From: Acorus gramineus
Taxonomy: Eukaryota > Streptophyta > Magnoliopsida > Acorales > Acoraceae
Direction of reading: 5' to 3'
Length of the DNA stretch: 64,000 nt
NCBI GenBank assembly: GCA_030737835.1
Contig: CM060857.1
Span: forward strand, 15,945,496-16,009,495
Shown here piece by piece: positions 8,227-60,535 of the stretch. Below the pieces are notes generated by a model. It worked only from the letters and a program-made list of their open reading frames with translations, did not search any database and was not told where the DNA came from. Every line of letters begins with the position of its first letter. Position 1 is the stretch's first letter. Position numbers and translations under genes: made by a program.

Positions 8227-10038
8227 ATGTGCTCCAGGGCTTTTGTTCTCTCAGTAATTTTGGTTGCTTCGTTTCTCACATTTTCGGAGGTGGCCCAAGC
8301 CATACAAATCCCTCGGAAGTTGAATTTGGAAAGTGAGCATTAGATCTCTCCTTTTCTTTTACATTTCTTCTTCTTTGATTAAACATCTTGCCAAGAATCT
8401 GATTAATCATATATAAATCTTCCAGAGTTTCAATTTTTCAAAAGCTTTTTTTTTTGTGGGATACTTTGAAAGAAGGTTTGTAAAATTGATTTTCAAAATA
8501 AAACTGGTTTCTTCAAATCTATATAGCCACCTAAAAAACACAATTATGCATTGTATTTTTGAAGTATTTATGGGTAGATTTTCAAGTTACGGTGGCGTTT
8601 GCAAGAATCAAATCCCCAAACTCAATTTCCAAACACATAAAATGGTGCTGCTTTGTAATTAAGAAGACATAAAAACAATTTTAAATATGGAAAATGTTAA
8701 CATCATCTAATAAAATATATATTTTAAATATATAAAACAAATGAAAAAATAAAAGTTATTTTTTAAAAATGAAACAAAGACATGTTCTTCAAAAAAAACT
8801 ATTTTAAAGAATTTTAAGTGAAAAGTTCTTTTTAAAGACGTTTTCAAACTTTACTTAAGTATATAAGTACTAGGTAATAAAGTTTGCACCGCCATAAAGA
8901 TTTGAGTTATTAAAATGTGATTTGGTTAAGATTATAGTTGAGATTCATTTGAATGTGCCGGTGATGCATTGATATCTTTATGTTTCGAACTCAAATTTCA
9001 AAAGGCATTGTTTCGTTAGTTTTTTTTGCTCGATATTTTAGTTTGAAAATTAAAAGTAAATGTTAAAAATGTGTTTGAATCCGCATTTAGGAATCTTTCG
9101 TTTTTGAATCATAAAATATGCTCAAAAGCAATCCAAATGGGTTAAATTAGAAAGTAAACATAAATGATCCATTCCTTGCTACTTATATCTCACATAAGAG
9201 TCAGATTTGGATCCTCTACTTGTTTTGTGTTTTGATCAATCAGACAATCATAAATTCATCAAATAAAATGAATTCATTTATTCATTCATGATTTGATATA
9301 TTTATAATAGTTTGATTTTAATTGTAATGATGTGACAATCTCACAATAAAAGTCAAATAAGATACAAATAGAAAAAAACAAGCAGATGATCCAAATAAGA
9401 GCCTTCCACAGACCATGGCTATCCATGGGCATAGGCGACCATAAGGCCCCAAAACACAGAGGGCCTCAAGATTTCAGGAAAAAAAAGTTTTATTTTTATT
9501 TGTTGGGATATTTTTTTAATTAATTTGTTTTATTTTTAAAAACTTATTCACATATTTATATTTTGTCTTTTAATTTTGTTTTGTTCCAATTTTATTGGGA
9601 GTTGATACTATTTATTCTTTGATTTACAAAGAATAAAAATTTATTAGATCATATATAATTTTCATATTTTTATTCATTTATTATGTTTTGCTTGTTTTTA
9701 TTTTACGTTTTTAAAACAGTGTGTTATTTTTATGATTTAATTTATCTGTTTCTTTCTTTCTACTTATTTTATAGGAACACATTTTGTTAAGGTGAGTTGT
9801 GTAAAACAATTAAATTCAAATTTCAATAATTATTCAAATTTTTGTGACACTAATCATAAAAAATTTTTTTGTATAAATAGGGCCTCATTTTCCAAGTTCG
9901 CCTAAGGATCCTCCTCTCCAGACTAGTTTCCCACGCGGCCCAGGCCGAGGCCGAGGCACAGCCCCATGCCCATCATGTTGCTGTCAAAACGATTGCCCAG
10001 GAGGATGCTGTCAAAACGGGCAGTGTTGTTGTCCTTGA
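8227..10038 (+). CDS. Small secreted Cys-rich peptide, gene A (CCC-type C terminus)
   Basis: Spliced CDS: 8227-8332 joined to 9881-10038 (87 residues). Exon 1 gives a signal peptide, MCSRAFVLSVILVASFLTF then SEVAQA, with an AQA cleavage site, followed by IQIPRKLNLE. The donor is A|GTGAGC and the acceptor GTATAAATAG|GG, in phase 1. Exon 2 gives a Pro/Ser/Gly-rich linker (PHFPSSPKDPPLQTSFPRGP, then GRGRGTAP) and a Cys cluster, CPSCCCQNDCPGGCCQNGQ then CCCP, ending at TGA. There are ten Cys in 23 residues. The PH after the splice point also occurs at the same place in the diverged gene I, which supports this acceptor. Reading on past the TGA, the old tail (GCSHGLDFPVEDKVEP) is still present, now untranslated. 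I do not recognise the family. The protein is probably exported, but its activity is unknown. An out-of-frame ATG lies 8 nt upstream of the chosen start. Confidence 0.7.
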
Positions 10039-10039
10039 A

Positions 10040-10457
10040 TCACTCCAGGATGCTCGCATGGTCTCGATTTTCCAGTGGAAGACAAGGTCGAGCCTTGAAT
10101 CACTTTATCATGCTGGATGTGAAGTTTAAGTTGTATTAGTATATTAAGCTACCTTGAGGAGTTTGTTCTACAAAATAAATAAATAAAAGTGTCATTAGGT
10201 GATCACTTTAAACTTGGGAGTGTGACAATTTTATTTGAGCCAGCAGAGGTACTTAATGTCTAGTAATGGTTCGGAATTCTAATGGTCCTGGCCAAATTTC
10301 CAGGATTTTATGACTATCCATTAGCATTGATACTTACTCAATCTGTTATGTATCCCCATACTCAATTCAGTAACGCATTTATTACTGTTTTTTTATAAAG
10401 TAGTATATATTTCATTTTTTTAGTATATAAAAAATTATAAAAATTTTATTTTTTAAA

Positions 10458-10519
<62 letters not shown>

Positions 10520-11086
10520 CACATTTCATAATAATTATTGAGTGAGTATATGATTTTAGACAAAATCAAAACGGTTGGGATACATCGAGGATGCACGTGA
10601 GGTTAATGTATAATTTTTTTTTTATTGATAGAGATAAGAAAGATGATACATTCAGTCTCACGCGCAGCCCCATCCGCAATTCTCACTGTTTACTATTTAA
10701 AAAAGTTATATATTTCATGTATAATCCGCAGTCCTTAGTGTTTATGATTTTTAAAAAAATTATACAATCATCCATTGAATTACATACTATGAAATAAAGT
10801 AAATACTTAGATACAATCCCATATTTTTTTAGTTTCTTTGAAAAATAAAATAAACTTTCATGTACTATGATAAAATTTATATACTACAATAACGTAATAA
10901 TATGTACTATATCATTATAGTGCATAAAAGACGGAGTTATAAATATCAGCGATTCAGTAACCGCTATCTAAGCCCATTTGTATCGAAATTGAAATGGGGT
11001 CATCCATTTGGGATGGGTTTCCCCAATTTCAATAAAAACTGGTCAGTTTGAAAGAAAAAAAAATCATTCCAAAGCTTACAAGGGAT
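10040..11086. other. 3' flank of peptide gene A
   Basis: Shared 3' region of all peptide genes. It holds AATAAATAAATAAA polyadenylation-like runs near 10,172, the conserved GAGCCAGCAGAGGT block, then AT-rich DNA. No gene seen. Confidence 0.5.
10461..10517. repeat. (TA)n microsatellite
   Basis: Pure TA run, much shorter in the equivalent position of other units (for example 19,870-19,888). Confidence 0.9.
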
Positions 11087-13013
11087 CCAAACTTATTAGA
11101 ATTCATTTATAAGTTAAAAACAACTTTAAAAAGTCAAAATATCTAAACCGGTCAAATGGTGCATTTCAAATTATAACTTATAGATTGTTTCTTTTTAAAA
11201 GATTTGTCGGACATTATTGCCCTTAACTTTTTTTTATTAATAACCATACTAAAAATTGTAATATTTTGAAAAATTTTAACGTGAATTTTAACTTTTATTA
11301 TTTTATATTAATTTTTCATTTAAATATTCATAAAACTAATTTTATAAAGAAAAACCACCTTATTTTATCAAAAAGAAATTAAATTAAATTTCTACATTTG
11401 AAAGGGATATATTTGACAATTAAACAGCAAAAATTTATTTTACAACTTATTTTAATAAACATTTACTACTGTTTATTCTCTATTTTTCAACAGTTACAAC
11501 AAACATGTCTATTATTTAAAATCTATAAACTATAATTTATGAATTAGAGCTACAACAACAAACATGGTCATATCTCTATTGCAATTTATGACTGGACCAA
11601 TATTGGAGGCCCACGATTAGACAAGATCAACTTTTTGTGTGATGAACAAGGTTAGGTCCACGGTCTACCATATTTATTAATTAGAGTATAAAATATAATT
11701 TTTTTATAAAAATATGTATTTTATAAAATAATTTTCTAATTTTCTTTTTTATAATGCATATGATATCCAATAAACATACAGGCTCTCTAAGTCCTTCGTA
11801 GTGCTCGCTTTAATCTAACCTAGCATATTCAAAGTAAAAATAATTTTCATAGAATTTAATATAAATTCAATTCATTGGAATAATTCTTTATGAAGTTATG
11901 TAATTCATGACAAGTATATGATTTCAAAATGTACTGGGTGAAAAAAAAAAAAAAACACCCGACGAGCATGGCCTTTTAAAAAAATTTCATATTAAAACAT
12001 GTTGGAGCGGGCGGGATTGAAAAGCAATAGACTGAAATAACATGTTTTTCATGTTAATGATGATTTTACACGCAACCTGAGTATGTTCTTAAGTGCTTTA
12101 TTTATTTATTTTTTGTAAAATGTGTATTTTTCCATATAACATATATCATATATGTTCATAAAGAATGAAGTGTATATACCCTAATTTTAGAAATGATAAA
12201 TAATTATACGCTTCATTTTATATAATATATATAGATTAGTTGGTCATTACTTTTCCTCTTCACGAAAAAAGTCAGGTTATTAAACCCGGGGCCAAAGGAA
12301 CACCGATTATCTTATTTTCTCTGGGTAACAAACAAGGATAGTTCTTCATCGTAATCACTAAAAGGAAGAAAAAAAGAGGGATGTGATTATGTGAAGATGC
12401 TCTATCAAACTTAACCAGATAAAATCTGAGTTCAGTGAGAGTTTAAACAAACAAAATCTCTAACCAAGCTCGAACAACGGTTGAATCCATGCCAGAAACA
12501 TTTAATTTACTAAGAAAAAAAAAAATTTAACAGAGTTCAAGCTCTTGCCCATTAGGTCAACTAGGCTTACTATCAATCAATTTAATGTCTTCACAACACA
12601 CCTGAATTTTATTTAGTGGGAGTGAATAATTTAATGTTGTGTTAGATATTGATCATTCTCTACTTAAATTTAAAACTTCCAACAGTTTTCTAACGGGGTG
12701 GGGTTCTGGTATGAGTTTCAAAAGCTCGTTTTGTGAAGCACATTGATGTTTAAAGGTAATTGATTGTATTAAAAACTTTGACCAGTGTCTAATGATAGAC
12801 TAATTATGTTGTTGAAAGGCAAATCTCTCAAAAATATATTGAACTGAGTCAAGAACTCAAGATGAGAAGGTGAAACATAATTGACTTTGCACTCAATATC
12901 AAGGATCACGTAATATGTGATTCTACGCATATTATGTTTATAATTTCAATTGCGCTTTCATCCACAGCTTATACTTCTAGTGAAACATGAACACAAAATA
13001 ATTCAAATTCAAA

Positions 13014-13505
13014 TCAAAGCCACCACAAATCATAAAGTATCAAACAATCCCACAATTCCCCACACCCCATAACATCCCCCTCTCGACGGGCCGGCCCGCC
13101 GTGGCCTTCAACCCGCCCGAATCGGCCGGTCCGAACCGACAGTGAGCCAGAATCCAAAGCGACCCCAACAATGCGGGCCCGTCGCGTGGCCCGCACGGGT
13201 CGACCGCGGGCGAAACGACGGCCCGGTTCAGCTCGGTCGACACGTTGTTCTTTGTCGGGCCGGGCCTGGTCTGGTGGTAGAGGCTCGAGTGGTTGATGTC
13301 GGGCACGCTCACCGTTTCGGGCTGGCCCGCGCGGGATCTTTGCTTCGTGCGCGTAGATTGCGAGGAGGACGGCTTCGAAGCCCGCGTTGGGGGAGGAGGC
13401 GCGGGCGAGGTAGGCGGCGGAGAGGACGGAGAGGGAGGTTAGGAGGGTTTGGGTAAGGGTGGGTGGTGGGTTGGATTGGTTGGTGGGGTTAGTTTCGTCT
13501 GACAT
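13014..13505 (-). pseudogene. GC-rich ORF of unknown function, copy 2 (probably frameshifted)
   Basis: Near-identical to the copy at 3874-4365 (AIYAHEAK instead of AIYPHEAK). It has the same extra base that separates the MSDETN... frame from the RAGQPETVSVPDINH frame. Sharing of this shift means the inactivation, if it is one, predates the duplication. No recognisable domain. Confidence 0.4.
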
Positions 13506-14089: not shown

Positions 14090-14090
<1 letters not shown>

Positions 14091-14151
<61 letters not shown>

Positions 14152-14153
14152 GG
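14091..14153. repeat. (GT)n(GA)n(G)n microsatellite
   Basis: Equivalent of the repeat at 4962-5050, downstream of FLZ copy 2 and shorter in its GT part. Confidence 0.9.
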
Positions 14154-14174
14154 CCGAGCATCAAACCTTTTATT

Positions 14175-16218: not shown

Positions 16219-16221
<3 letters not shown>

Positions 16222-17698: not shown

Positions 17699-19502
17699 AT
17701 GTGCTCCAGGGCTTTTGTTCTCTCAGTAATTTTGGTTGCTTCGTTTCTCACATTTTCGGAGGTGGCCCAAGCCATACAAATCCCTCGGAAGTTGAATTTG
17801 GAAAGTGAGCATTAGATCTCTCCTTTTCTTTTACATTTCTTCTTCTTTGAGTAAACATCTTGTCAAGAATCTGATTAATCATATATAAATCTTCCAGAGT
17901 TTCAATTTTTCAAAAGCTTTTTTTTTTGTGGGATACTTTGAAAGAAGGTTTGTAAAATTGATTTTCAAAATAAAACTGGTTTCTTCAAATCTATATAGCC
18001 ACCTAAAAAACACAATTATGCATTGTATTTTTGAAGTATTTATGGGTAGATTTTCAAGTTACGGTGGCGTTTGCAAGAATCAAATCCCCAAACTCAATTT
18101 CCAAACACATAAAATGGTGCTGCTTTGTAATTAAGAAGACATAAAAACAATTTTAAATATGAAAAATGTTAACATCATCTAATAAAATATATGTTTTAAA
18201 TATATAAAACAAATGAAAAAATAAAAGTTATTTTTTAAAAATGAAACAAAGACATGTTCTTCAAAAAAAACTATTTTAAAGAATTTTAAGTGAAAAGTTC
18301 TTTTTAAAGACGTTTTCAAATGCTACTTAAGTATATATGTACTAGGTAATGAAGTTTGCACCACCATAAAGATTTGAGTTATTAAAATGTGATTTGGTTA
18401 AGATTAGTTGAGATTCATTTGAATGTGCCGGTGATACATTGATATCTTTATGTTTCAAACTCAAATTTCAAAAGGCATTGTTTCGTTAGTTTTTTTTACT
18501 CGATATTTTAGTTTGAAAAATTAAAACTAAATGTTAAAAATGTGTTTGGATCCGCATTTAAGAATCTTTCGATTTTGAATCATAAAATATGCTCAAAAGC
18601 AATCCAAATGGGTTAAATTAGAAAGTAAACATAAATGATCCATTCCTTACTACTTATATCTCACATAAAACCCGGTTTGGATCATCTACTTGTTTTGTGC
18701 TTTGATCAATCAGGTGGTCATAAATTCATCCAAAAAAATGGATTCATTTATCAATTCATGATTTGATATATTTATTACTATTTTATTTCAATTGTAATGA
18801 TATGGTAATCTCACAATAAAAATCAAGTAAGATACAAACATGGAAAAACAAGCAGATGATCCAAATAAAAGCCTTCCACAGACCATGGCCATCCATGGGC
18901 ATAAGCGACCATAGGGCTCCAAAACACGGAGGGCCTCAAGATTTCAGGAAAAAAAAGTTTTATTTTTATTTGTTGGGATATTTTTTTTAATTATTTTATT
19001 TTATTTTTAAAAACTTATTCACATATTTATATTTTGTCTTTTAATTTTGTTTTGTTCCAATTTTATTGGGAGTTGATACTATTTATTCTTTGATTTACAA
19101 AGAATAAAAATTTATTATATGATTTTCATATTTTTATTCATTTATTATGTTTTGCTTGTTTTTATTTTACATATTTGGAACTATTTGTTATTTTTATGAT
19201 TTAATTTATGTGTTTCTTTCTTTCTTTCTACTTATTTTATAGGAATACATTTTGTTAAGTTGAGTTGTGTAAACCAATTAAATTCAAATTTCAATAATTA
19301 TTCAAATTTTTGCGACACTTATTATAAAAAAAATTTTTTTGTATAAATAGGGTCTCCTTCTCTCCAGCCTAGTCTCATGGGCTACGGCAGGGGGGGCACC
19401 GACCCGATAACATCCGTACCTTGCGTGGAAAACAGGCAGTGTTATTGTCCAGGATGCTCGCATGGTCTCGATTTTCCAGTGAAAGACAAGGTCGAGCCTT
19501 GA
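17699..19502 (+). CDS. Small secreted Cys-rich peptide, gene B (4-Cys type)
   Basis: Spliced CDS: 17699-17804 joined to 19351-19502 (85 residues). Exon 1 encodes the same signal peptide and propeptide start as gene A. Exon 2 reads SPSLQPSLMGYGRGG, then TDPITSVPCVENRQCYCPGC, then SHGLDFPVKDKVEP to TGA. It has four Cys spaced C-x5-C-x-C-x2-C and the family tail. The linker lacks the PHFPSSPKD segment of gene A because 24 bases are missing right after the acceptor. The frame is open from the acceptor to the stop. A pyrimidine-rich alternative acceptor (TTCTCTCCAG|CC) would give an immediate stop, so the TAAATAG|GG site is preferred here, though only cDNA can settle it. Function unknown, probably a secreted signal or defence peptide. 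Confidence 0.7.
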
Positions 19503-20429: not shown

Positions 20430-23400
20430 AAATATATATTAACCTATTGAAGTATATATTGTAATAAAAAGTAAAATATACACTGAGATACATTGATATA
20501 TTTTTTAAAAATAAAATAAAATAATTGATTTTTATATTATAATAGTACAGTATACATTACAATAGTTCAATACTACCATAGTGTATAGATAATTGATGGA
20601 TCATTTTTATAATACAAATGATATTATAAAACGGATTGGGTGTTCAACAGTCATCTAATATTTTTTCCATTGTTGTATGATCTCTATATATAATATCTGA
20701 TGTTTTCCCGTAAGAATTAATGTGACTAAATTTTCTAAGATGCTGGTCAAATGGATGCATTGATTTTTCCATCTTGTTCTGACTCTATTAAGATACTACA
20801 CCAGGGACAAATATATATACACACACATATATATAATATATTAATGCGCATGAAGCATGTAATTTCCACAAACCTGGTCCCGAATGAAGTGCAAGTGATT
20901 TTTGTTTTTTTGTTGAGATAATTGTGTTCATATTCATTTCAACTAATAAATCAAAATAGAACACACAAGTGGTTTCATTAAAAGATATTGGTTTTGGCAT
21001 TTCCACAATTCTGGTCCCGCATGCAATAGATGTCTCAATCTGGTGTTATGAATTATTTGAAGGAAATTAATGAAGTAAGTCAAGTAACAAAAATATGGAC
21101 CCACAAAATGTTTGCCAAGATTGACCAAGAACAATCTGCGCAACCTTTCCATTTCAGTTCTATAACACTCACTTTTGAAAAGGTGGAAATAAACAAGTCA
21201 TTGTGATGCAAAAATTATTTTTTCTTTTATTTGGGATTTTGGAGGGGGTGTTGGTTAATGTATTGTAGTCTGTAGAACCCTGGGGTTGATATTAATAGGA
21301 ACTTTCACAGTGGAAATTTAACTATGAGCAATGCTTAAGATACGAAAAATCAAGCCATGTGAATGCATGGTTGCATCACATATATTTTAACGTTTGTTTT
21401 AGAGAAAATATGTTTCTATGTTTTTTTAACCAAAGTTGATAATATCTAAATTTTATTAAAATTAAAGATTTTTTACTTTTAAGTTCCCATGAGCTATATA
21501 ATGATCGATCCCTCCATTTTTTATACTAAGGATTAAGTCTCGTTAGTTTTTTTTTTATATATATATATCTAATTCTCCCCTGTTCTCCCACCCAAACAGC
21601 TTAGTAGTTAACTGTAGTCAAATAATGATACCCTCTTGACGACCAGTATTCAAAATAAGTGGCTCGCCACGGACCACATTAACAAAATAAAGTCCTCACA
21701 AAACGCCACGGGTGAAGCAATCAAGAATTTAAAGTACAAACTCACAAATACATATAAATAAATATGAAGCCCTCAAATGCATTGTCAAGGATAATGCAAA
21801 AATGTGCTCCAAGGCTTTTGTTCTCTCACTCATTTTGGTTGCTTCGTTTCTCACATTTTCGGAGGTGGCTCAAGCCATACAAATCCCTCGGAAGTTGAAT
21901 TTGGAAGGTGAGCATTAGATCTCTCCTTTTCTTTTACATTTCTTCTTCTTTGATTAAACATCTTGCCAAGAATCTGATTAATCATATATAAATCTTCCAG
22001 AGTTTCAATTTTTCAAAAGCTTTTTTTTTGTGGGATACTTTGAAAGAAGGTTTGTAAAATTGATTTTCAAAATAAAACTGGTTTCTTCAAATCTATATAG
22101 CGACCAAAAAAACACAATTATGCATTGTATTTTTAAAATATATATGGGTAAATTTTCATGTTACGTTGGCGTTTGCAAGAATCAAATTCCCAAATTTAGT
22201 TTCCAAAACATAAGATGGTGCTGCTATGTAAGATGACATAAAAACAATTTTAAATATGGAAAATGTTAACATCGTCTAATTAAGTATATTTTTAAATATA
22301 TAAACAAATGAAAAAATAAAAGTTATTTTTTAAAAATGATACAAAGACATGTTCTTCAAAAAAAACTATTTTAAAGAATTTTAAGTGAAAAGTTCTTTTT
22401 AAAGACGTTTTCAAATGCTACTTAAGTATATATGTACTAGGTAATAAAGTTTGGACCGCCATAAAGATTTGAGTTATTAAAATGTGATTTGGTTAAGATT
22501 AGTTGAGATTCATTTGAATGTGCCGGAGATACATTAATATTCATTGTGTTTCAAACTCAAATTTCAAAAGGCATTGTTTCGTTAGTTTCTTTTGGTGGAT
22601 ATTTAGGTTTGAAAAATTAAAACTAAATGCTAAAAATGTGTTTGGATCCGTATTTAAGAATTTTTCAATTTTGAATCATAAAATATGCTCAAAAGCAATC
22701 CAAATGGGTTAAATTAGAAAGTAAACATAAATGATCCATTCCTTACTACTGATATCTCACATAAGAGCCAGATTTGGATCCTCTACTTGTTTTGTGTTTT
22801 GATCAATCAAACAATCATAAATTCATCAAATAAAATGAATTCATTTATTCATTCATGATTTGATATATTTATAATAGTTTGATTTTAATTGTAATGATAT
22901 GGTAATCTCACAATAAAAATCAAATAAGATACAAACAGAAAAAAACAAACAGATGATCCAAATAAGAGCCTTCCACAGACCATGGCTATCCATGGGCATA
23001 GGCGACCATAAGGCCCCAAAACACGGAGGGCCTCAAGATTTCAGGAAAAAAAAAAAGTTTTATTTTTATTTGTTGGGATATTTTTTTAATTAATTTGTTT
23101 TATTTTTAAAAACTTATTCACATATTTATATTTTGTCTTTTAATTTTGTTTTGTTCCAATTTTATTGGGAGTTGATACTATTTATTCTTTGATTTACAAA
23201 GAATAAAAATTTTATAGGAACACTTTTTGTTAAGGTGAGTTGTGTAAAACAATTAAATTCAAATTTCAATAATTATTCAAATTTTTGTGACACTAATCAT
23301 AAAAAAAAAAATTTGTATAAATAGGGCCTCATTTTCCAAGTTCGCCTAAGGATCCTCCTCTCCAGACTAGTTTCCCACGCGGCCCAGGCCCACCCTCAGC

Positions 23401-24510
23401 CCCAAGCGGCCCAGTCTCATGCCCATCATGTTGCTGTCAAAACAGGCAGTGTTGTTGCCCAGGAAGATGCTTTCCAAACGGGCAGTGTTATTGTCCTTGA
23501 ATCACTCCAGGATGCTGGCATGGTGTCGATTTTCCAGTGGAAGACAAGGTGGAGCCTTGAATCACTTTATCATGCTGGATGTGAAGTTTAAGTTGTATTA
23601 GTATATTAAGCTACCTTGAGGAGTTTGTTCTACAAAATAAATAAATAAATAAAAGTGTCATTAGGTGATCACTTTAAACTTGGGAGTGTGACGATTTTAT
23701 TTGAGCCAGCAGAGGTTTAATGTCTAGTAATGGTTCGGAATTCTAATGGTCCAGGCCAAATTTCCAGGATTTTATGACTATCCATTAGCATTGATACTTA
23801 CTCAATCTGTTATGTATCCCCATATTCAATTCAATAACGCATTTTATTACTGTTTTATTTTAAAGTAGTATATATTTCATTTTTTTAGTATATGAAAAAT
23901 TATAAAAATTTTATTTTTTAAAATGTATTAATATATATATATATATATTTTACTTTTCATAATAATTATTGAGTGAGTATATGATTTTAAAAAAAAATCA
24001 AAACGGTTGGGGGATACATTGAGAATGCACGTGAGGTTGGATGTATAATTTTTTTTTTATTGATAGAGATAAGAAAGATGATACATTCAGTCTCACGCGC
24101 AGCCCCATTCGCAATTCTCACTGTTTATTATTTTAAAAAAATTATATATTTCACCCATAATCCGCAGTCCTTAGTGTTTATTATTTTTAAAAAAATTATA
24201 CAATCACCCATTGAATTACACAGTGTCATATGAAATAAAATATACTTAGATACAATCGCATATTTTTTTAATTTCTTTGAAAAATAAAATAAACTTTCAT
24301 AGACTATGATAAAATTTATATACTACAATAACGTAGTAATATGTATTATATTATTATAGTGCATAAAAGACGGGGTTATAAATATCAGCGATTTAGTAAC
24401 CGCTATCTAAGCCCATTTGTATCGAAGTTGAAACGGGGTCATCCATTTGGGATGGGTTTCCCCAATTTCAATAAAAACTGGTCAGTTTGAAAGAAAAAAA
24501 AAATCATTCC
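20430..24510. repeat. Partial duplication unit 3 (peptide gene only)
   Basis: Corresponds to the right part of unit 2 (from 16,327) with no GC-rich ORF and no FLZ gene. Its right edge, near 24,510, runs into a SINE at a place where the SINE's left target-site copy is missing, so the edge is a recombination join, not an insertion. Confidence 0.7.
21802..23500 (+). CDS. Small secreted Cys-rich peptide, gene C (CCC-type C terminus)
   Basis: Spliced CDS: 21802-21907 joined to 23325-23500 (93 residues). The signal peptide starts MCSKAFVLSLILVASFLTF. Exon 2 reads PHFPSSPKDPPLQTSFPRGP, then GPPSAPSGPVS, then CPSCCCQNRQCCCPGRC and FPNGQCYCP to TGA. It has ten Cys. Two imperfect copies of a C-x-N-x-Q-C-x-C-P module lie in tandem. 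As in gene A, the old tail follows the stop codon (GCWHGVDFPVEDKVEP) and is untranslated. The intron is about 200 bases shorter than in A and B owing to a deletion in its 3' part. Same unknown role as its paralogues. Confidence 0.7.
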
Positions 24511-25890: not shown

Positions 25891-25999
25891 ATGGTCTCCA
25901 AGGCTTCTGTTCTATTATCAGTCATTTTGGTTGCTTCATTCCTCTTATCTTCGGAGGTGGCCCAAGGCATCCAAATCCCTCGGAAGTTGAATTTGGAAG
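25891..25999 (+). pseudogene. Orphan exon 1 of a Cys-rich peptide gene (D)
   Basis: Exon 1 of the second signal-peptide subtype, MVSKASVLLSVILVASFLL then SSEVAQGIQIPRKLNLE, with an intact G|GTGAGT donor in phase 1. The intron is cut after about 180 bases at 26,180, where it joins the flank of the GC-rich ORF, and no exon 2 follows nearby. The next phase-compatible exon 2 is 14 kb downstream (40,318, locus E), beyond an LTR element. The same fusion occurs in gene G, where an exon 2 does follow after 1.6 kb, so D probably arose from a G-like fused gene that lost or never gained its exon 2. Confidence 0.65.
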
Positions 26000-38718: not shown

Positions 38719-40469
38719 ATGTGCTCCAGGGCTTTTGTTCTCTCAGTAATTTTGGTTGCTTCGTTTCTCACATTTTCGGAGGTGGCCCAAGCCATACAAA
38801 TCTTCTTCTTTGATTAAACATCTTGCCAAGAATCTGATTAATCATATATAAATCTTCCAGAGTTTCAATTTTTCAAAAGCTTTTTTTTTGTAGGATACTT
38901 TGAAAGAAGGTTTGTAAAATTGATTTTCAAAATAAAACTGGTTTCCTCAAATCTATATAGTGACCTAAAAAACACAATTATGCATTGTATTTTTGAAGTA
39001 TTTATGGGTAGATTTTCAAGTTACGGTGGCGTTTGCAAGAATCAAATCCCCAAACTCAATTTCCAAACACATAAAATGGTGCTGCTTTGTAATTAAGAAG
39101 ACATAAAAACAATTTTAAATATGAAAAATGTTAACATCATCTAATAAAATATATGTTTTAAATATATAAAACAAATGAAAAAATAAAAGTTATTTTTTAA
39201 AAATGAAACAAAGACATGCTCTTCAAAAAAACTATTTAAAAGCAATTTTAAGTGAAAAGTTCTTTTTAAAGACGTTTTCAAATGCTACTTAAGTATGTAT
39301 GTACTAGGTAATGAAGTCTGCACCACCATAAAGATTTGAGTTATTAAAATGTGATTTGGTTAAGATTAGTTGAGATTCATTTGAATGTGCCGGTGATACA
39401 TTGATATTCTTTGTGTTTCAAACTCAAATTTCAAAAGGCATTGTTTTGTTAGTTTCTTTTGCTGGATATTTTAGTTTGAAAAATTAAAACTAAATGTTAA
39501 AAATGTGTTTGGATCCGCATTTAAGAATCTTTCAATTTTGAATCATAAAATATGCTCAAAAGCAATCCAAATGGGTTAAATTAGAAAGTAAACATAAATG
39601 ATCCATTCCTTACTACTGATATCTCACATAAGAGCCGGATTTGGATCCTCTACTTGTTTTGTGCTTTGATCAATCAAACAATCATAAATTCATCAAATAA
39701 AATAGATTCATTTATCAATTCATGATTTGATATATTTATTACCATTTTATTTTAATTGTAATGATATGGTAATCTCACAATAAAAATCAAATAAGATACA
39801 AATAGGAAAAAACAAGCAGTAGATGATCCAAATAAGAGCCTTCCATGGACCATGGCCATCCATGGGCATAAGCGACCATAGGGCTCCAAAACACGGAGGG
39901 CCTCAAGATTTCAAGAAAAAAAGAAAGTTTTATTTTTATTTGTTGGGATATTTTTTTTAATTAATTTGTTTTATTTTTAAAAACTTATTCACATATTTAT
40001 ATTTTGTCTTTTAATTTTGTTTTGTTCCAATTTTATTGGGAGTTGATACTATTTATTCTTTGATTTACAAAGAATAAAAATTTATTAGATGATTTTCATA
40101 TTTTTATTCATTTATTATGTTTTGCTTGTTTTTATTTTACATATTTGGAACTATTTGTTATTTTTATGATTTAATTTATGTGTTTCTTTCTTCTTTCTAC
40201 TTATTTTATAGGAATACATTTTGTTAAGTTGAGTTGTGTAAACCAATTAAATTCAAATTTCAATAATTATTCAAATTTTTGCGACACTTATTATAAAAAT
40301 TTTTTTTGTATAAATAGGGTCTCCTTCTCTCCATCCTAGGCTCATGCGCCGGGGCGCCCCCTCGGAGCCATCCGTATATTGCGGGGAAAACGGGCAGTGT
40401 CCATGTCCATCTCCTCAAGGATGCTCGCATGGCGCCGATTTTCCAGTGGAAGACAAGGTCGAGCCTTGA
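38719..40469 (+). pseudogene. Cys-rich peptide gene E: broken exon 1, intact exon 2
   Basis: Exon 1 starts normally at 38,719 but a 57-base deletion (relative to gene A 8311-8367) removes its end and the splice donor. It now reads ...AQAIQIFFFD and stops. Much of the proximal promoter is also deleted near 38,570. Exon 2 (40,318-40,469) stays open in the family frame: SPSLHPRLMRRGAPS, then EPSVYCGENGQCPCPSPQGC, then SHGADFPVEDKVEP to TGA, with four Cys. Exon 2 shows no decay although exon 1 is dead, so the break is recent, or exon 2 is used from another exon 1. Exon D at 25,891 has the matching phase but is 14 kb away. Confidence 0.65.
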
Positions 40470-45577: not shown

Positions 45578-47394
45578 ATGTGCTCCAGGGCTTTTGTTCT
45601 CTCAGTAATTTTGGTTGCTTCGTTTCTCACATTTTCGGAGGTGGCCCAAGCCATACAAATCCCTCGGAAGTTGAATTTGGAAGGTGAGCATTAGATCTCT
45701 CCTTTTCTTTTACATTTCTTCTTCTTTGATTAAACATCTTGCCAAGAATCTGATTAATCATATATAAATCTTCCAGAGTTTCAATTTTTCAAAAGCTTTT
45801 TTTTTTGTGGGATACTTTGAAAGAAGGTTTGTAAAATTGATTTTCAAAATAAAACTGGTTTCCTCAAATCTATATAGTGACCTAAAAAACACAATTATGC
45901 ATTGTATTTTTGAAGTATTTATGGGTAGATTTTCAAGTTACGGTGGCGTTTGCAAGAATCAAATCCCCAAACTCAATTTCCAAAAACATAACATGGTGCT
46001 GCTTTGTAATTAAGAAGACATAAAAACAATTTTAAATATGAAAAATGTTAACATCATCTAATAAAATATATGTTTTAAATATATAAAACAAATGAAAAAA
46101 TAAAAGTTATTTTTTAAAAATGAAACAAAGACACGCTCTTCAAAACAACTATTTAAAAGCAATTTTAAGTGAAAAGTTCTTTTTAAAGACGTTTTCAAAT
46201 GCTACTTAAGTATGTATGTACTAGGTAATGAAGTTTGCACCACCATAAAGATTTGAGTTATTAAAATGTGATTTGGTTAAGATTAGTTGAGATTCATTTG
46301 AATGTGCAGGTGATACATTGATATTCTTTGTGTTTCAAACTCAAATTTCAAAAGGCATTGTTTCATTAGTTTCTTTTGCTGGATATTTTAGTTTGAAAAA
46401 TTAAAACTAAATGTTAAAAATGTGTTTGGATCCGCATTTAAGAATCTTTCGATTTTGAATCATAAAATATGCTCAAAAGCAATCCAAATGGGTTAAATTA
46501 GAAAGTAAACATAAATGATCCATTCCTTACTACTGATATCTCACATAAGAGCCAGATTTGGATCCTCTACTTGTTTTGTGTTTTGATCAATCAAACAATC
46601 ATAAATTCATCAAATAAAATGAATTCATTTATTCATTCATGATTTGATATATTTATAATAGTTTGATTTTAATTGTAATGATGTGACAATCTCACAATAA
46701 AAGTCAAATAAGATACAAATAGAAAAAAACAAGCAGATGATCCAAATAAGAGCCTCCATGGCTATCCATGGGCATAGGCGACCATAAGGCCCCAAAACAC
46801 GGAGGGCCTCAAGATTTCAGGAAAAAAAAAAAGTTTTATTTTTATTTGTTGGGATATTTTTTTTAATTAATTTGTTTTATTTTTAAAAACTTATTCACAT
46901 ATTTATATTTTGTCTTTTAATTTTGTTTTGTTCCAATTTTATTGGGAGTTGATACTATTTATTCTTTGATTTACAAAGAATAAAAATTTATTAGATCATA
47001 TATAATTTTCATATTTTTATTCATTTATTATGTTTTGCTTGTTTTTATTTTACGTTTTTAAAACAGTGTGTTATTTTTATGATTTAATTTATCTGTTTCT
47101 TTCTTTCTACTTATTTTATAGGAACACTTTTTGTTAAGGTGAGTTGTGTAAAACAATTAAATTCAAATTTCAATAATTATTCAAATTTTTGTGACACTAA
47201 TCATAAAAAAAAAATTTGTATAAATAGGGCCTCATTTTCCAAGTTCGCCTAAGGATCCTCCTCTCCAGACTAGTTTCCCACGCCGCCCAGGCCGAGGCGG
47301 AGGCACAGCCCCATGCCCATCATGTTGCTGTCAAAACGGGCAGTGTTGTTGCCCAGGAAGATGCTGTCAAAACGGGCAGTGTTGTTGTCCTTGA
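45578..47394 (+). CDS. Small secreted Cys-rich peptide, gene F (CCC-type, 12 Cys)
   Basis: Spliced CDS: 45578-45683 joined to 47228-47394 (90 residues). Exon 1 is the gene A type. Exon 2 reads PHFPSSPKDPPLQTSFPRRP, then GRGGGTAP, then CPSCCCQNGQCCCPGR and CCQNGQCCCP to TGA. The module CCQNGQCCCP is present twice, and the DNA repeats the same 36-base unit in tandem (TGCTGTCAAAACGGGCAGTG...). It has twelve Cys in 26 residues, the densest of the family. The old tail (GCWHGVDFPVEDKVEP) follows the stop and is untranslated. The clean internal repeat suggests that this is the source or latest form of the CCC type. Confidence 0.7.
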
Positions 47395-50553: not shown

Positions 50554-52379
50554 ATGGTCTCCAAGGCTTCTGTTCTATTATCAGTCATTTTGGTTGCTTC
50601 ATTCCTCTTATCTTCGGAGGTGGCCCAAGGCATCCAAATCCCTCGGAAGTTGAATTTGGAAGGTGAGTATTAGATCTCTTTTTTGTCTTTTACATTTCTT
50701 CTTCTTTGATTAAACATCTTGCCAAGAATCTGATTAATAATAAATCTTCCAGTGTTTCAATTTTTCGAAAGCTTTTTTTTTTGTGTGGGATACTTTGAAA
50801 GAAATAAAGTTTGTAAAATTGATTTGCATAATAAAACTGGTTTCCTAACGGGGTGGGGTTCTGGTATGAGTTTCAAAATTAAAGCTTGTTTTGTGAAGCA
50901 CATTGATGTTTAAAGGTAATTGATTGTATTAAAAACTTTGACCAATGTCTAATGATAGACTAATTATGTTGTTGAAAGGCAAATCTCTCAAAAGTATATT
51001 GAACTGAGTCAAGATGAGAAGGTGAAACATAATTGACTTTGCACTCAATATCAAGGATCACGTAATATGTGATTCTACGCATATTATGTTTATAATTTCA
51101 AATGCGCTTTCATCCACAGCTTATACTTCTAATGAAACACGAACACAAAATAAATCAAATTCAAATCAAAGCCACCACAAATCATAAAGTATCAAACAAT
51201 CCCACAATTCCCCACACCCCATAACATCCCCCTCTCGACGGGCCGGCCCGCCGTGGCCTTCAACCCGCCCGAATCGGCCGGTCCGAACCGACAGTGAGCC
51301 AGAATCCTGAGCGTGGGCTGCTGTGATAGACCTCCAAAGCGACCCCAACAATGCGGGCCCGTCGCGTGGCCCGCACGGGTCGACCGCGGGCGAAACGACG
51401 GCCCGGTTCAGCTCGGTCGACTTGTTGTTCTTTGTCGGGCCGGGCCTGGTCTCGTGGTTGATGTCGGGCACGCTCACCGTTTCGGGCTGGCCCGCGCGGG
51501 ATCTTTGCTTCGTGCGCGTAGATTGAGAGGAGGACGGCTTCATGCGCGTAGATTTCGGGCTCACCATTTTATATAAACTAATAAGAAAAATATATTAGTT
51601 TATTAAAAAAAAACAGATATTATGAATTAAATATTATCGTTTATATAAAATGTGATTTTTTTTCCTAATGAAGTAAAAATATTTCAACAGTGAGTGTTTC
51701 AATTTTTTTTTAAAAAAAAAACAGATACACCGTAACATTAAACAAGAAAAAGTTTAATCAATCATTATGTATCTTTGTTAAAATTGTGATAGTAGGGCTC
51801 CAAAACACGGAGGGCCTCAAGATTTCAAGAAAAAAAGAAAGTTTTATTCCTATTTGTTGGGATATTTTTTTAATTAATTTATTTTATTTTTAAAAACTTA
51901 TTCACATATTTATATTTTGTCTTTTAATTTTGTTTTGTTCCAATTTTATTGGGAGTTGATACTATTTATTCTTTGATTTACAAAGAATAAAAATTTATTA
52001 GATCATATATGATTTTCATATTTTTATTCATTTATTATGTTTTGCTTGTTTTTATTTTACATATTTGGAACTATTTGTTATTTTTATGATTTAATTTATG
52101 TGTTTCTTTCTTCTTTCTACTTATTTTATAGGAATACATTTTGTTAAGTTGAGTTGTGTAAACCAATTAAATTCAAATTTCAATAATTATTCAAATTTTT
52201 GCGACACTTATTATAAAAAATTTTTTTTTGTATAAATAGGGTCTCCTTCTCGCCAGCTTAGTCCCATCCCCGGCGAAACCCCGACGACATCCGCACCTTG
52301 CGAGGAAAACGGGCAGTGTTATTGCCCAGAATGCTCGCATGGTGTCGATTTTCCAGTGGAAGACAAGGTGGAGCCTTGA
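50554..52379 (+). CDS. Small secreted Cys-rich peptide, gene G (fused locus, 4-Cys type)
   Basis: Spliced CDS: 50554-50662 joined to 52240-52379 (82 residues). Exon 1 is the MVSKASVLL subtype with donor G|GTGAGT. Exon 2 reads SPSRQLSPIPGETPTT, then SAPCEENGQCYCPECSHGV, then DFPVEDKVEP to TGA, with Cys spacing C-x5-C-x-C-x2-C. The 1,577-base intron is chimeric. It begins as a normal peptide intron, switches at about 50,846 to the flank and body of the GC-rich ORF (minus strand), and returns at about 51,796 to the peptide intron. Splice sites and phase are kept, so a mature mRNA is possible. The whole middle could instead make this a dead fusion. Only transcript data can tell. Confidence 0.6.
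51166..51567 (-). pseudogene. GC-rich ORF, copy 4 (inside the intron of gene G)
   Basis: Matches copy 3, including the 28-base insertion and the shortened SVPDINHETRPGPTKNN segment, but the upstream (N-terminal) third is replaced by rearranged DNA near 51,540-51,600. Here RAGQPETVSVPDINH is preceded in frame by Ser/Thr/Arg-rich residues that are not part of the original protein. It lacks the LTR element found next to copy 3 and so preserves the empty insertion site at 51,106-51,116. Confidence 0.45.
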
Positions 52380-55295: not shown

Positions 55296-56517
55296 ATGGT
55301 CTCCAAGGCTTCTGTTCTATTATCAGTCATTTTGGTTGCTTCATTCCTCTTATCTTCGGAGGTGGCCCAAGGCATCCAAATCCCTCGGAAGTTGAATTTG
55401 GAAGGTGAGTATTAGATCTCTTTTTTTTCTTTTACATTTCTTCTTCTTTGATTAAACATCTTGCCAACAATCTGATTAATGATAAATCTTCCAGTGTTTC
55501 AATTTTTCGAAAGCTTTTTTTTGTGTGTGGGATACTTTGAAAGAAATAAAGTTTGTAAAATTGATTTGCATAATAAAACTGGTTTCCTCAAATCTATTTA
55601 GCGACCAAAAAAACACAATTATGCATTGTATTTTTAAAATATATATGTTAATTCATTTAGATTCTTTGTGTTTCAAACTCAAATTTGAAAAGGTGTTGTT
55701 TTGTTATTTTCTTTTACTCGATATTTTAGTTTGAAAAAACTAAAACTAAATGTTGAATATTTGTTTAAATCCGTATTTAGGAATCTTCTGCTTTTGGAAC
55801 ATAAAATATGCTCAAAAGAAATCTAAACGACTTGATATCTCACATAAGAGCCACCTCTCAAACCATGACCATCCATGGGCATAAGGCATAGGGCCCCAAA
55901 ACACAAAGGCCTCAAAATCTCAGAAAAAATATTTGATTCCTATGTGTTGGGATTTTTTTGTTTTGTTTTTCATTATTTTATTTTATTTAAAAAAACTTAT
56001 TCACATATTTATATTTTGTCTTTTGATTTTGTTTTGTTCCAATTTTATTGGGAGTTGATACTATTTATTCTTTGATTTACAAAGAATAAAAATTTATTAG
56101 ATCATATATAATTTTCATATTTTTATTCATTTATTATGTTTTGCTTGTTTTTATTTTACGTTTTTTGAAACTGTGTGTTATTTTTATGATTTAATTTATG
56201 TGTTTCTTTCTTTCTACTTATTTTATAGGAAATACATTTTGTTAAAGTGAGTTGTGTAAAACAATTAAATTCAAATTTCAATAATTATTCAAATTTTTGT
56301 GACACTAATCATAAATAAAAAAATTGTATAAATAGGGCCTCATTTTCCAAGTTCGCCTAAGGCTCCTTCTCTCCGGACCAGTCTCCCATCCAGCCCAGTG
56401 CCCCCATCCGGCCCTTCCCCACGCACATCCGTATTTTGCGGGAGAAACGGGCAGTGTAATTGCAATGGATGCTCGCATGGTCTCGATTTTCCAGTGGAAG
56501 ACAAGGTCGAGCCTTGA
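55296..56517 (+). CDS. Small secreted Cys-rich peptide, gene H (4-Cys type)
   Basis: Spliced CDS: 55296-55404 joined to 56336-56517 (96 residues, the longest). Exon 1 is the MVSKASVLL subtype. Exon 2 reads PHFPSSPKAPSLRTSLPSSP, then VPPSGPSPRTSV, then FCGRNGQCNCNGC, then SHGLDFPVEDKVEP to TGA. The linker is strongly Pro/Ser-rich and the Cys pattern is C-x5-C-x-C-x2-C. The intron is short (931 bases) because of a deletion between about 55,650 and the conserved 3' part. It combines the long linker start of the CCC-type genes with the 4-Cys tail, so it may be close to the ancestral form. The downstream competing CAG acceptor seen in other copies is CGG here, leaving the TAAATAG|GG site as the best one. 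Confidence 0.75.
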
Positions 56518-57464
56518 ATCACTTTATCATGCTGGATTTGAAGTTTAACTTGTATTTTAGTAAAATATGTACTCTAACGAATTAAATAAATTTTGACCAA
56601 CTAATTTTATGTATGTATCTTTTCTTGTTTTTTTTCCTTTGCCTTGGTCAAGCTCCCTTCTTTTATTTCCTTTTAATCGCCATCCTTGTTTTATCAAATT
56701 TTAAATTTTGTAGTACAATATATTCTTAATACAATCGTGATAGTATTGTCTTAACTTTGCTTAAGAAAAAAATTATTTAATTTTTAAGTAGGTACCATAG
56801 TATGTAGATAGCATTTTAGTTGAAATTGGGCTTATATTGGCTCATATTTATGGTCTTCATCAAGTGGACCCTCATGCATCTAATATCATGAATTTGGAAA
56901 AATGTTAGACTCTTATCTTTTTTACAGTTTAAAAAATAGATCATATATGTTTTTATTTTTTAAAATAATAAACTACATATAATAAATAATATGACGCAAA
57001 AGCTTTATTAGATTTATCACGATGCAAATAAATTAAATTGTCTTATATGTAGTAAAAAAAAAATTGAATTCAATAGCCCCCGCATTGATTGCATGGATTT
57101 ATGCAAGAAAATGATGGGAAATGTCTAGCATGAGGGCCCATTTATTTTTATTTTGCAGTACTTGTGCGTGTTTTTCTTGTTGAATATTGTTAAATCAATC
57201 CCTTAGCATCAAGTGGGTCAGAGAGCTACGATCTGGACTCTGACACCTCTGAGAAATAAATTGATGACTTTAATCAAAGGGTCTACCATGAGTGGGTGCA
57301 CTCATGCCTCAAGGCAAATGAACTTTTCAATGCATTTTATTTATTAATATTGAAATACAATTAAATAGTTAAATTTCGGTTCATTCTTATTTAATTTATT
57401 TTAATTTTAAATTCAATTTAACATATAAAAAAAATATATAAGTCTAAGATATAAATCATGTATC

Positions 57465-57506
<42 letters not shown>

Positions 57507-57895
57507 GCCTAAGATTTTTCGTGACCAAGTACGGTGGAGACGTGATATATACCATGTCATTTTATGATAGCACTGGTCAAATGTTAATTTTTTGCAAATA
57601 TTCAAAAGCTAATTAGGTTATTTATGTTAATATTAAAAAAATTAAAGTTATTTTGCACCTGAAGAAAATAATTTGTTTCTTAGTTTATCTTTTAACCAAA
57701 GTTGGTAGTATCCTAATTTTATTAAAATTAGAAGACCCTGATTAGGTAGATAAAAATTTAATGATTCTAGAACTCATTTGGTGTTCATTCTTATTTTCAT
57801 TATACTAAAACACCTAGAAAAATTACGTTTGGAATCTTTTTTCTGAATCAAAGTTATCAAATTAGCCTTTAAACTCTTACTTACATGCATGTTTC
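56518..57895. other. Unique AT-rich intergenic DNA
   Basis: The tandem array ends shortly after gene H. I see no gene. There is a TA microsatellite at 57,468-57,502 and, around 57,690-57,760, a short match to the ACCAAAGTTGGTAGTATC block upstream of the peptide genes. Confidence 0.5.
57468..57502. repeat. (TA)n microsatellite
   Basis: Pure TA run. Confidence 0.9.
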
Positions 57896-57898
57896 CAG

Positions 57899-58390
57899 CA
57901 AGGGCGGACCCAGGATTTAGAACAAGGGGGGGCCAGAGACCAAACAATATTCTTGAAATTAAAAAAAAACATTATAACAGAATATAAATATGAAGATGAT
58001 AATTTAAGACAAAAATATCAAAATTCAAGTCATTTATTAATAAGTCAATGCAACAATGAAGATCTCATAGATAATAGAAAAATAAACAATAAATTACATA
58101 TTTTCTACTTCAGTACGATTTTTCACTGTATAAAATTCATCTACAATCATGTCATTATTAAATTTTTCAGTTATTTCTCTTTCAAAATATAAAATAAATT
58201 TTTTTGCAAGAAATTCATTCTTCATCTTATTACGAAGTCTTGTTTTAACAAGCTTCATAGCTGAAAATGATTATTCGGTAGTTGTTATTAAAACTGAAAG
58301 AATCAAAACAAGATGAATCTATCAATGAGATAAAACATCTTCGACTTTTCTGTTTCAATGAGTGCTTGACATAATTCAAATATTCCAAAC
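57899..58390 (-). pseudogene. C-terminal remnant of a hAT transposase
   Basis: The minus-strand frame through 58,300-58,000 reads VLILSVLITTTE, a stop, SFSAMKLVKTRLRNKMKNEF, then LAKKFILYFEREITEKF and a stop. This is the hAT dimerisation region (…TTERSFSAMKLVKTRLRN-M…), with the expected Arg replaced by a stop codon. The outer sequence at 57,897-57,920 (CAGCAAGGGCGGACCCAGGA) looks like the terminal region of such elements. The rest of the transposase is missing, so it is dead. Confidence 0.7.
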
Positions 58391-59262
58391 AAATTTTGTA
58401 ATCTTTCATGAGAAAGGACATCAAACTCGTAATGTTGTAACTGATATCTTAACATTGTAATTTCTTACTCTATAAAATAAATAAATAAATTCTAACAAAG
58501 ACATTTTATCAAAATATATACCTCGTTAATTTAAATATATGTTTCGATGATTTTCTATTGACATATGGGGTCTGAGATGTCACCTGAGACGACGTCACGA
58601 TGTGACACAAAATTTATTTTTATTTTTATTTTTTTCCAGTGGGAAGGGGTATTGTTATTATTATTATTATTTCAATGGGTTTCACATGGTCACCTGCCCC
58701 CCACACACCTTACATATCAACTACTCTTTCATGGGCTAATGGGTTAGAATTAATTGATTTAAAATCATATAAAATGCATTATGCATGGCCACTAATTAAA
58801 AATGAGGGCTGCGCCACTAATTAAAAATGAGGGGCTGCCCCCCCCCCCCCCCTTTCGGGTATTGCTTAAATTAAAATTTGATATCATAATGACAATGTAC
58901 ATGGATTGTGAGTGATCTTAATCAATTAGATTTTTCAAATAATGTTGAGGCTCTGCGTAAAAAAAATAATAATATATCTTGTTTGGAATTATAAGTTGAT
59001 AAATTGCATATACGAAGGTGGTGGACCATTCTTTAATCATAAATTCCTTCACAGTCAAATGATATCCACTTGATGATTAAAGCGGTCAAAGTAAGTGGCT
59101 AACAAACCACAGAATGACAAAACCAGTTCTTATTATATAATAATAATAATAATAAAACATTAAAAGCACCACTGGTGAAGGTTGTGTCCAAGTCACACAC
59201 ACACATTAAAAACACCACTGGTGAGAAAGAGAGAGAGAGAGACAGGGAGCCAGTACATTATC

Positions 59263-60535
59263 ATGGCAAAAATGTGCTCCAAGGCTCTGGTTCCCTTGGT
59301 TATTTTGGTTGTTTCATTTCTCATATTTTCGGAGGTGGCCGAAGGCACACAACTCACTCGGAAGTTAAGCCTCGGTTCAGGTGAGCGTTTGATTTTTTTA
59401 AAAAAATATTATTATTGTTTACATTTCTTTGTTTTAGATTAAACATCTAGCCAACAAAGGGGTTTCAATTTTATTAGGCTCTTTTAATTTGTGGGATTCT
59501 TTGCATGAAGGTTTTGATTTGTTTTTTTGAATTTGTTCAAATCTGAGGAACATTCATGCATGATTAATTTGGGAAATGCTTTGTTGAATTATCAAATCTA
59601 AAGAAATTAAGAAAGTAATGAAGTAACAAAGACATGAGCACACAAATGTTTACGAAGATTCACCAACAATAATAAATTGTTGAGTAAAACACTTTTTAAG
59701 TTTTTTGTGCTTATCCCAGTAACCAATACAAGAATTTGCTTACATAGAAGTTTAATATATAGAGATAACTATAATGTCTTGTTTAGAAATTTACAGTGTT
59801 GGCTCTTTGATTAGAAGTTACTCTCCCCGATTTGTTTATAGATAGCTAGATAGATATGAAACACTGTCAAGAGTAATGCACAATGTGTGCTCCAAGGCTT
59901 TTATTCTCTTGGGTGCTGTTTGGAATAGAGAGAGAATAAGAGGGAATATGGAGAGAATAAACCTAAAAACCTATTTGGGTGGAAGGAATATATAAGTATT
60001 CAAATATTTCAATTTTCGTCCAAAATTTCAATTTTTTTTTTTTTTTTTTTTGGCTATGAAAGGAAGTTGTGAAAATTGTTAATGTTTCAAAATAAAACTG
60101 GCTTTTCGAAATATATGTAGCTACCCAAAAAAACACAATCTTACATGATTATATAAATCATATATATACAAAAACAACTTTTGGTAAATATTCTTTTTAT
60201 GCGGTCATGTGAGAATGGTCCACCGTGAGCGAATTACTTCTAGCCATCCGATCAAAAATTCCATCGACAAGATGATAAATGAAGGATTATAATAAATATT
60301 TTCTTAACTATTCGATCAATGGAATCTCAATCGAACAGCTAGCAGAAAATTTGTTAAGATTCTGATTGAGATTTAAATGGGAAAAGTAAACCTAATTGGT
60401 TCATCTATTACTGCAGATGTCCCACACAAGGGCCTGCCCTCGAGACCATCTTTATTTTGCTCGATTAACAGATGTAATTGCATAGGATGCTCACATGGTC
60501 TCGACGTTCCTGCAGAAGCCAAGGTGGAGCCTTGA
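59263..60535 (+). CDS. Small secreted Cys-rich peptide, gene I (diverged 4-Cys member)
   Basis: Spliced CDS: 59263-59380 joined to 60417-60535 (78 residues). Exon 1 reads MAKMCSKALVPLVILVVSFL, then IFSEVAEG and TQLTRKLSLGS. Exon 2, after a normal CTGCAG acceptor, reads DVPHKGLPSRPSL, then FCSINRCNCIGC, then SHGLDVPAEAKVEP to TGA. Cys spacing is C-x4-C-x-C-x2-C. It lies outside the tandem array and differs throughout, yet the splice phase, PH after the junction, the four Cys, SHGLD and KVEP are all kept, which shows that the family frame is real and selected. It is the nearest member to the receptor kinase gene. Its ATG GCA AAA ATG start suggests that the array genes lost one G and with it this upstream start. 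Confidence 0.8.
59876..59912 (+). pseudogene. Broken second exon 1 inside the intron of gene I
   Basis: AATGTGTGCTCCAAGGCTTT resembles the start of exon 1 (ATGTGCTCCAAGGC) with two extra bases, then is cut after CTCTTGG by GGTGCTGTTTGGAATAGAG, which looks like a MITE end. The preceding bases (ACTGTCAAGAGTAATGCA) match the usual 5' flank. It is a trace of an earlier tandem copy. Confidence 0.5.

Follow-up and report, generated by a model that had tools for sequence, protein, structure and literature searches.

The repeated pairs of short exons in a stretch of Acorus gramineus DNA (contig CM060857.1, positions 15,945,496 to 16,009,495; 64,000 nucleotides, hereafter the window) raise the question of whether they are genes for secreted peptides and, if so, why the second exon differs so strongly between copies whose surroundings are nearly identical. 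The answer that we consider probable is that the genes in this window form a tandem array and encode small secreted cysteine-rich peptides (CRPs) of a rapidly diversifying family so far seen only in this genus, in which the diversity is selected and the flanks are kept alike through exchange between copies.

Two-exon genes for predicted secreted peptides

Nine copies of exon 1 and eight copies of exon 2, all on the plus strand, were located by tblastn together with a motif search (members A to I, starting at the positions in Table 1), which recovered every copy and the phase-1 pairing proposed in the first-pass annotation of this DNA. The phase-1 GTGAG donor is kept in eight of the nine exon 1 copies, the exception being E, and each of the eight exon 2 copies has a phase-1 AG acceptor followed by a frame that is open to a stop. 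The acceptor is TATAAATAG followed by GG in A, B, C, E, F, G, and H, and TGCAG followed by AT in I. Splicing of the seven complete pairs (A, B, C, F, G, H, and I) removes introns of 931–1577 bp and gives products of 87, 85, 93, 90, 82, 96, and 78 amino acids, respectively, in agreement with the 78–96 residues predicted earlier.

The lengths of insertions and deletions separate exon 2 from its surroundings. When seven exon 2 copies are aligned (I, being too divergent, was set aside), all 10 of the distinct gap intervals have a length divisible by three, compared with 2 of 38 over three flanking stretches (1 of 18 in the 3′ flank of A, B, C, E, F, and G; 1 of 15 at the intron end of A, B, E, F, G, and H; and 0 of 5 at the intron start of A, B, C, and F). 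Gaps at alignment ends were not counted, and C was excluded from the intron end for a large change there. The contrast between exon 2 and the flanks (Fisher p = 1e-8) is a guide only, since the intervals share history and are not independent.

Deposited proteins provide a second line of evidence. Three protein searches (E up to 10) returned Acorus proteins alone, with 2, 4, and 8 matches and eight different proteins in total, the weakest being P0007 (5.3e-3) and P0008 (0.094); no protein from outside the genus was matched, although such searches require shared five-residue words and a predicted protein, and distant or unannotated relatives could exist. The matched proteins are A. calamus relatives and three A. 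gramineus proteins from another contig (C32). None is an A. gramineus protein from the window, which fits the earlier remark that the family is hidden from open reading frame (ORF) searches; the bacterial-type ORF list made for the window is uninformative for two-exon plant genes. Two of the A. calamus proteins have the same exon junction as the members predicted here: P0001, with 97% identity to I, and P0003, with 84% identity to H. An H-like and an I-like protein were matched both on CPA09 and on CPB21, where P0002 and P0004 are apparently the corresponding pair, and one protein of the C32 type was matched on CPA10. The gene sets of both species drew partly on transcriptomes, a statement that PMC10282084 makes of the sets in general and that is not specific to single models.

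The family extends beyond the window in its own genome. A search of 398.6 Mb, in which the window lies on contig C11, with exon 2 protein found 11 places at E ≤ 10, five of them in the window (I, H, E, B, and G); this count is a lower bound, coming from one search that missed A, C, and F. Five further places (L006, L007, L010, L011, and L013; E from 3.8e-5 to 0.27) form a second cluster at 4.11–4.42 Mb of C32. In members a and b of that cluster the signal exon differs from the one in the window but resembles it, the donor is in phase 1, and the core reads GxPSxPSxxC-x4-C-x-C-x2-C-SHG; the spliced prediction for b equals the deposited protein P0005 (QJS04_geneDACA023258) letter for letter. Member c, with HHG, is out of register, and the deposited P0007 shows this frameshift too; P0006 has SND instead of SHG. 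Two of the C32 members recur about 237 kb apart at a nearly constant offset, which reflects either a genuine duplication or one introduced by the assembly. The remaining place is a lone exon-2-like stretch on the minus strand (L014, C11:16138922-16139014; E = 0.65) with the cysteine core and CSHG, for which no exon 1 was found.

All seven spliced products have a cleavage-like site (AQA, AQG, or AEG) behind a hydrophobic stretch, the latter judged by eye, and the mature parts past the predicted cleavage are 50–70 amino acids long. Exon 2 codes for a linker containing proline and serine, and the mature parts contain 10 (A), 4 (B), 10 (C), 12 (F), 4 (G), 4 (H), and 4 (I) cysteines. A core of C-x(4,5)-C-x-C-x2-C-SHG is present in B, G, H, and I, with E having five residues ahead of the last cysteine, and four cysteines are invariant in an eight-row alignment (A2) that does not include A, B, C, or F. 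The conserved C-terminal end is a 16-residue tail, GC[SW]HG[LV]DFPVEDKVEP; the four-cysteine core and this end are common to H, I, and their A. calamus relatives, and partly to the C32-type members. The seven loci called intact in the first-pass annotation are complete as exon pairs, but A, C, and F have a shorter C-terminal end, with a TGA ahead of the tail and the tail continuing behind it in the same frame. These three copies carry 12 bases, absent from B, G, and H and similar to the gene end, that bring in the TGA. The protein encoded by exon 1 is identical among A, B, and F, and likewise among D, G, and H. Exon 2 of F has its 12 cysteines within 26 residues and a repeated CCQNGQCCCP unit, which has the look of a metal-binding sequence.

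Taken together, the case for coding rests on the in-frame gaps, the agreement with deposited gene models, and the second cluster. The A. calamus junctions, the C32 gene, and the gap lengths bear out the proposal of precursors encoded by two exons, the first signal-peptide-like and the second containing cysteines, and from the sequence it is very likely that these are protein-coding genes for secreted CRPs. The precursor would be secreted, cut after AQA, AQG, or AEG, form disulfides, and act outside the cell, making the product a putative apoplastic, disulfide-bonded peptide.

Divergence concentrated in exon 2 and how it can be explained

Exon 2 stands out as an island of difference. Summed over the six pairs of the same type (AC, AF, CF, BE, BG, and EG, which are not independent pairs), differences fall in 109 of 1110 exon 2 columns, compared with 2 of 747 in the 140 columns upstream and 4 of 1034 in the 180 columns downstream; an A/T run adjoining the acceptor has 11 of 110. 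The peak within exon 2 is 29% per 20 columns vs. 0–2% alongside (10% in one A/T run), while introns and 3′ flanks differ by 0.3–4.6% in same-type pairs. Among all 15 pairs of six copies, the core differs from the flanks in 14 (p ≤ 0.0014). H was excluded from these core, flank, and column-wise counts because the sequence past its exon 2 is unlike that of the others. The pattern suggests that exon 2 either predates its surroundings or changes faster at every site, with a filter for frame.

Under the reading of a selected tandem array, copies would arise through unequal exchange, which would also reshuffle the types of exon 1 and exon 2; selection would preserve differing versions of exon 2 and exchange would homogenize the remainder. 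That exchange between copies does occur is indicated by G, whose 5′ part is of the H type and whose 3′ part is of the B/E type. We lean toward the view that the diversity is kept by selection, with slightly less confidence after dN/dS had been recounted over all pairs.

Several observations limit this reading or weigh against it. An open frame is by itself no evidence, because the offset-0 reading of exon 2 runs further without a stop than the phase-1 frame does in six of the eight copies (A, C, E, F, G, and H); the earlier finding that all eight frames run open to a stop thus stands as a fact and is weak as an argument. The early stops of A, C, and F, the absence of an exon 2 from D, and the missing donor of E mean that some copies of the array may be decaying. 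An AlphaFold model of P0003 (six rows) has a mean pLDDT of 54.8, with the signal helix (residues 2–26) as its sole structure. The AF pair shows no excess of differences in the core (4 of 167, p = 0.49). Synonymous change is raised in exon 2 as well, at 23.4 of 242 sites compared with 98.6 of 806 nonsynonymous sites and 152 of 5952 in the flanks (pooled by hand over the six same-type pairs). Of 21 pairs, the six of the same type have dN/dS of 0.92–2.02 per pair and the remaining 15 have 0.37–1.15; in addition, H vs. I gives about 0.29. This count treated as coding the sequence past the stop in A, C, and F. With both kinds of change elevated and most dN/dS values close to 1 or lower, an excess of nonsynonymous change, and with it positive selection, is not proven.

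These substitution counts are the strength of the main rival, a tentative alternative that we take seriously: an old, divergent exon 2 cassette whose flanks were recently homogenized by gene conversion, or a local mutation hot spot, would need no selection for diversity. Both synonymous and nonsynonymous change are indeed raised in exon 2, dN/dS is below 1 in 13 of the 15 cross-type pairs, and the hybrid G shows that exchange takes place. However, the boundary is sharp on both sides of exon 2, and without selection one would hardly expect conversion tracts to spare exon 2 in one copy after another, while a hot spot alone would not respect the reading frame.

An unlikely explanation is that the array is mostly a graveyard, with one or two real genes (H and I) and the rest decaying recent duplicates in which exon 2 drifts freely. 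The broken D and E and the early TGA of A, C, and F are what such decay would look like, and the A. calamus searches gave just the H-like and I-like proteins and the single C32-type protein listed above. Free drift, on the other hand, would not outpace the intron and 3′ flank, nor would it leave all gap intervals in frame and all eight exon 2 copies open in phase 1.

It is also improbable that the mature-peptide exon was diversified by a process confined to the exon, through either exchange of cassettes or locally targeted mutation, with a filter for frame and with introns and flanks staying near-identical. The array would then be a plant counterpart of conotoxin-style diversification, and A, C, and F, with their doubled cysteines and lost tail, a newly made class of peptide. 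A variable coding exon set against near-identical flanks makes plant peptide diversification directly testable at one locus.

Placement among known secreted peptides

The first-pass annotation did not recognize the family, which fits the results of our profile searches: no Pfam family was matched at its cut-off by any of the 11 proteins scanned, among which the C and F products were not included. The first 25–26 residues of three of the 11 matched PF07172, the glycine-rich protein (GRP) family, below threshold (G, 17.2 bits; H, 17.1; P0003, 14.1; curated cut-off, 30). No defensin-like or late-nodulin Pfam match was listed for the 11 proteins at E up to 10, a setting at which HMMER filters drop most very weak matches. 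A search of PDB sequences with the A2 profile gave three matches with E of about 1, all to one methyltransferase, which we take as chance, and a literature search found no paper joining Acorus and cysteine-rich peptide.

Plant families of defensin-like (DEFL), nodule-specific cysteine-rich (NCR), and LURE peptides offer the closest parallels in gene organization. As characterized in the parts of PMC9515463 on pea, NCRs mostly have two exons, the first with the signal peptide, and four or six cysteines; AtLURE1 forms a species-specific tandem cluster, and no evidence of positive selection was reported for the LURE family (PMC3525529). The Acorus family has the DEFL/NCR layout of two exons with the predicted signal peptide on the first and the intron after it, and like DEFL, NCR, and LURE genes it places a variable cysteine-containing mature part on exon 2 and occurs in lineage-specific tandem clusters. 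Unlike DEFLs and NCRs, it has no Pfam match above cut-off, and DEFL/NCR was rejected as the family home for want of a profile match. To our knowledge, a core of C-x(3,5)-C-x-C-x2-C, mostly followed by SHG and ending in a PVEDKVEP-like or VNLHN sequence, fits no known peptide of the DEFL, NCR, or LURE type. Tandem turnover, restriction to the genus, and a hypervariable mature part resemble what is seen in NCRs and LUREs and suggest, by analogy, a role in defense or recognition, a proposal that could go either way.

The weak PF07172 matches raise the possibility that these are degenerate class II GRPs that lost their glycine repeats and kept the signal peptide and the cysteine-rich C-terminal end. 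Class II GRPs, as they are described in PMC5852109, combine a signal peptide and a cysteine-rich C-terminal end with [GG(X)3GG]n repeats, and the Acorus peptides resemble them in a predicted signal peptide of similar type and a cysteine-rich C-terminal end. Unlike class II GRPs, however, none of the seven mature parts contains GGxxxGG and glycine makes up 7–12%, and only three of the 11 proteins scanned gave any match, all below the cut-off; we rejected PF07172 as the family home and consider a degenerate GRP origin improbable. SCOOP peptides, defined by a serine/glycine-rich 13-residue epitope in the account that PMC7846792 gives of them, are similar in having small precursors (secretion is predicted here), a variable part, and, in the case of member I, a MIK2-like kinase alongside. 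Unlike SCOOPs, the conserved end here is a cysteine tetrad followed by SHG or KHG (alignment A2, by inspection), with no serine/glycine-rich 13-mer, and this candidate was rejected as well.

Conotoxin families offer an evolutionary analogy only, in their conserved signal part and hypervariable loops between conserved cysteines; the Acorus peptides are unlike them in being of unrelated sequence and plant origin and having no known activity, and no homology is claimed. Cysteine codons in conotoxins are kept site by site (PMC3823881). In the exon 2 copies with four cysteines (B, E, G, H, and I; read by eye), the first, second, and fourth cysteines are encoded by TGC, TGT, and TGC, respectively, in all five copies, and the third by TGC in three of the five.

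Because no Pfam family is matched at cut-off, GRP is touched only weakly, and class II GRP repeats are absent, we file these sequences as a putative new family within the small secreted CRPs, a class recognized by a short mature peptide with several conserved cysteines, as is predicted here. Acorus is placed as sister to all other monocots in PMC10282084, and from this position the family informs the origin and turnover of such peptides in an early-branching lineage. Short two-exon genes for secreted peptides are easily missed, as illustrated by the absence of the whole array from the protein records searched, in which its relatives are deposited.

Coordinates, neighboring genes, and sequence around the exons

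Table 1. Exons of members A to I and the block ahead of exon 2 of A (positions in the window)
Feature	Position	Strand	Remarks
Member A exon 1	8227..8332	+	signal-peptide-like; A followed by donor GTGAGC, phase 1
Member A exon 2, up to first stop	9881..10038	+	10 Cys in predicted mature part; conserved tail in frame past stop, 10048-10095
Member B exon 1	17699..17804	+	tblastn/motif search; phase-1 donor
Member B exon 2	19351..19502	+	4 Cys; tail present
Member C exon 1	21802..21907	+	tblastn/motif search; phase-1 donor
Member C exon 2, up to first stop	23325..23500	+	10 Cys; tail past stop
Member D exon 1, no own exon 2	25891..25999	+	next exon 2 belongs to E and lies 14 kb away
Member E exon 1, broken	38719..38802	+	exon end and donor missing
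Member E exon 2	40318..40469	+	frame open
Member F exon 1	45578..45683	+	tblastn/motif search; phase-1 donor
Member F exon 2, up to first stop	47228..47394	+	12 Cys; tail past stop
Member G exon 1	50554..50662	+	protein identical to exon 1 of D and H
Member G exon 2	52240..52379	+	B/E type; tail present
Member H exon 1	55296..55404	+	protein identical to exon 1 of D and G
Member H exon 2	56336..56517	+	4 Cys; tail present; A. calamus relative P0003
Member I exon 1	59263..59380	+	in-frame ATGs at 59263 and 59272
Member I exon 2	60417..60535	+	4 Cys; tail present; A. calamus relatives P0001, P0002
Block preceding exon 2 of A	9434..9907	+	counterparts at exon 2 of B, C, E, F, G, H; no match at I

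The 3′ end of the block ahead of exon 2 provides the acceptor and the first codons of the exon at the seven loci that have it. This block is possibly an inserted element, which is a guess. Its ends have the look of inverted repeats, but terminal repeats are not supported: local alignment of the two ends scored 13, against a best of 15 among 300 shuffles, and no pair linking these ends turned up when three stretches were searched for inverted repeats. The exon 2 starts in Table 1 would be displaced if the true acceptor lay 17–46 nt further downstream (after ccag or ctag), giving another frame and a cysteine-poor product. An AG after pyrimidine-rich sequence is present there in the A–H copies, but the frame carrying the cysteines would then be out of register with the phase-1 donor (hand translation of A, G, and H), P0003 and P0004 contain residues encoded upstream of those sites, and a 24-nt gap of B, E, and G, a multiple of three, falls in this interval; we regard such an acceptor as very improbable.

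Next to member I lies a leucine-rich repeat receptor kinase gene (60824-63933, minus strand), arranged tail to tail with it and with ends about 0.3 kb apart, whose best solved relatives are MIK2 structures (8web, 1.4e-162). Related kinases are numerous in the genome of A. gramineus, chiefly on C7, and none lies on C32 among the 132 matches listed (51 of 1520 candidates scored). That the peptides are ligands of this adjoining kinase, in a monocot counterpart of SCOOP signaling, is highly unlikely: MIK2 perceives SCOOPs and was first linked to the cysteine-rich LURE1 peptides (PMC7846792, in its treatment of MIK2), yet the second peptide cluster lies on C32, and we give the pairing little weight because no listed kinase match does, while the shared C-terminal end lacks the SCOOP type of epitope.

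Repeated minus-strand ORFs at 3874-4365, 13014-13505, and 51166-51567 encode 163, 163, and 133 amino acids with the C-terminal part in common; those at 3874 and 51166 had no Pfam match at E up to 0.1. A tRNA scan run under the bacterial code gave no tRNA and carries no weight here. Just upstream of the exon 1 start (8189-8226 in A, and counterparts), out-of-frame ATGs occur in A, B, C, and F, and a TATA-like ATATAAATA begins 50 nt 5′ of the start codon. Within the intron of member I, a relic at 59837-59910 resembles the 5′ region and the beginning of exon 1 in other members; intron-like sequence comes after it (60016-60165), which gives the impression that a deletion fused two copies.

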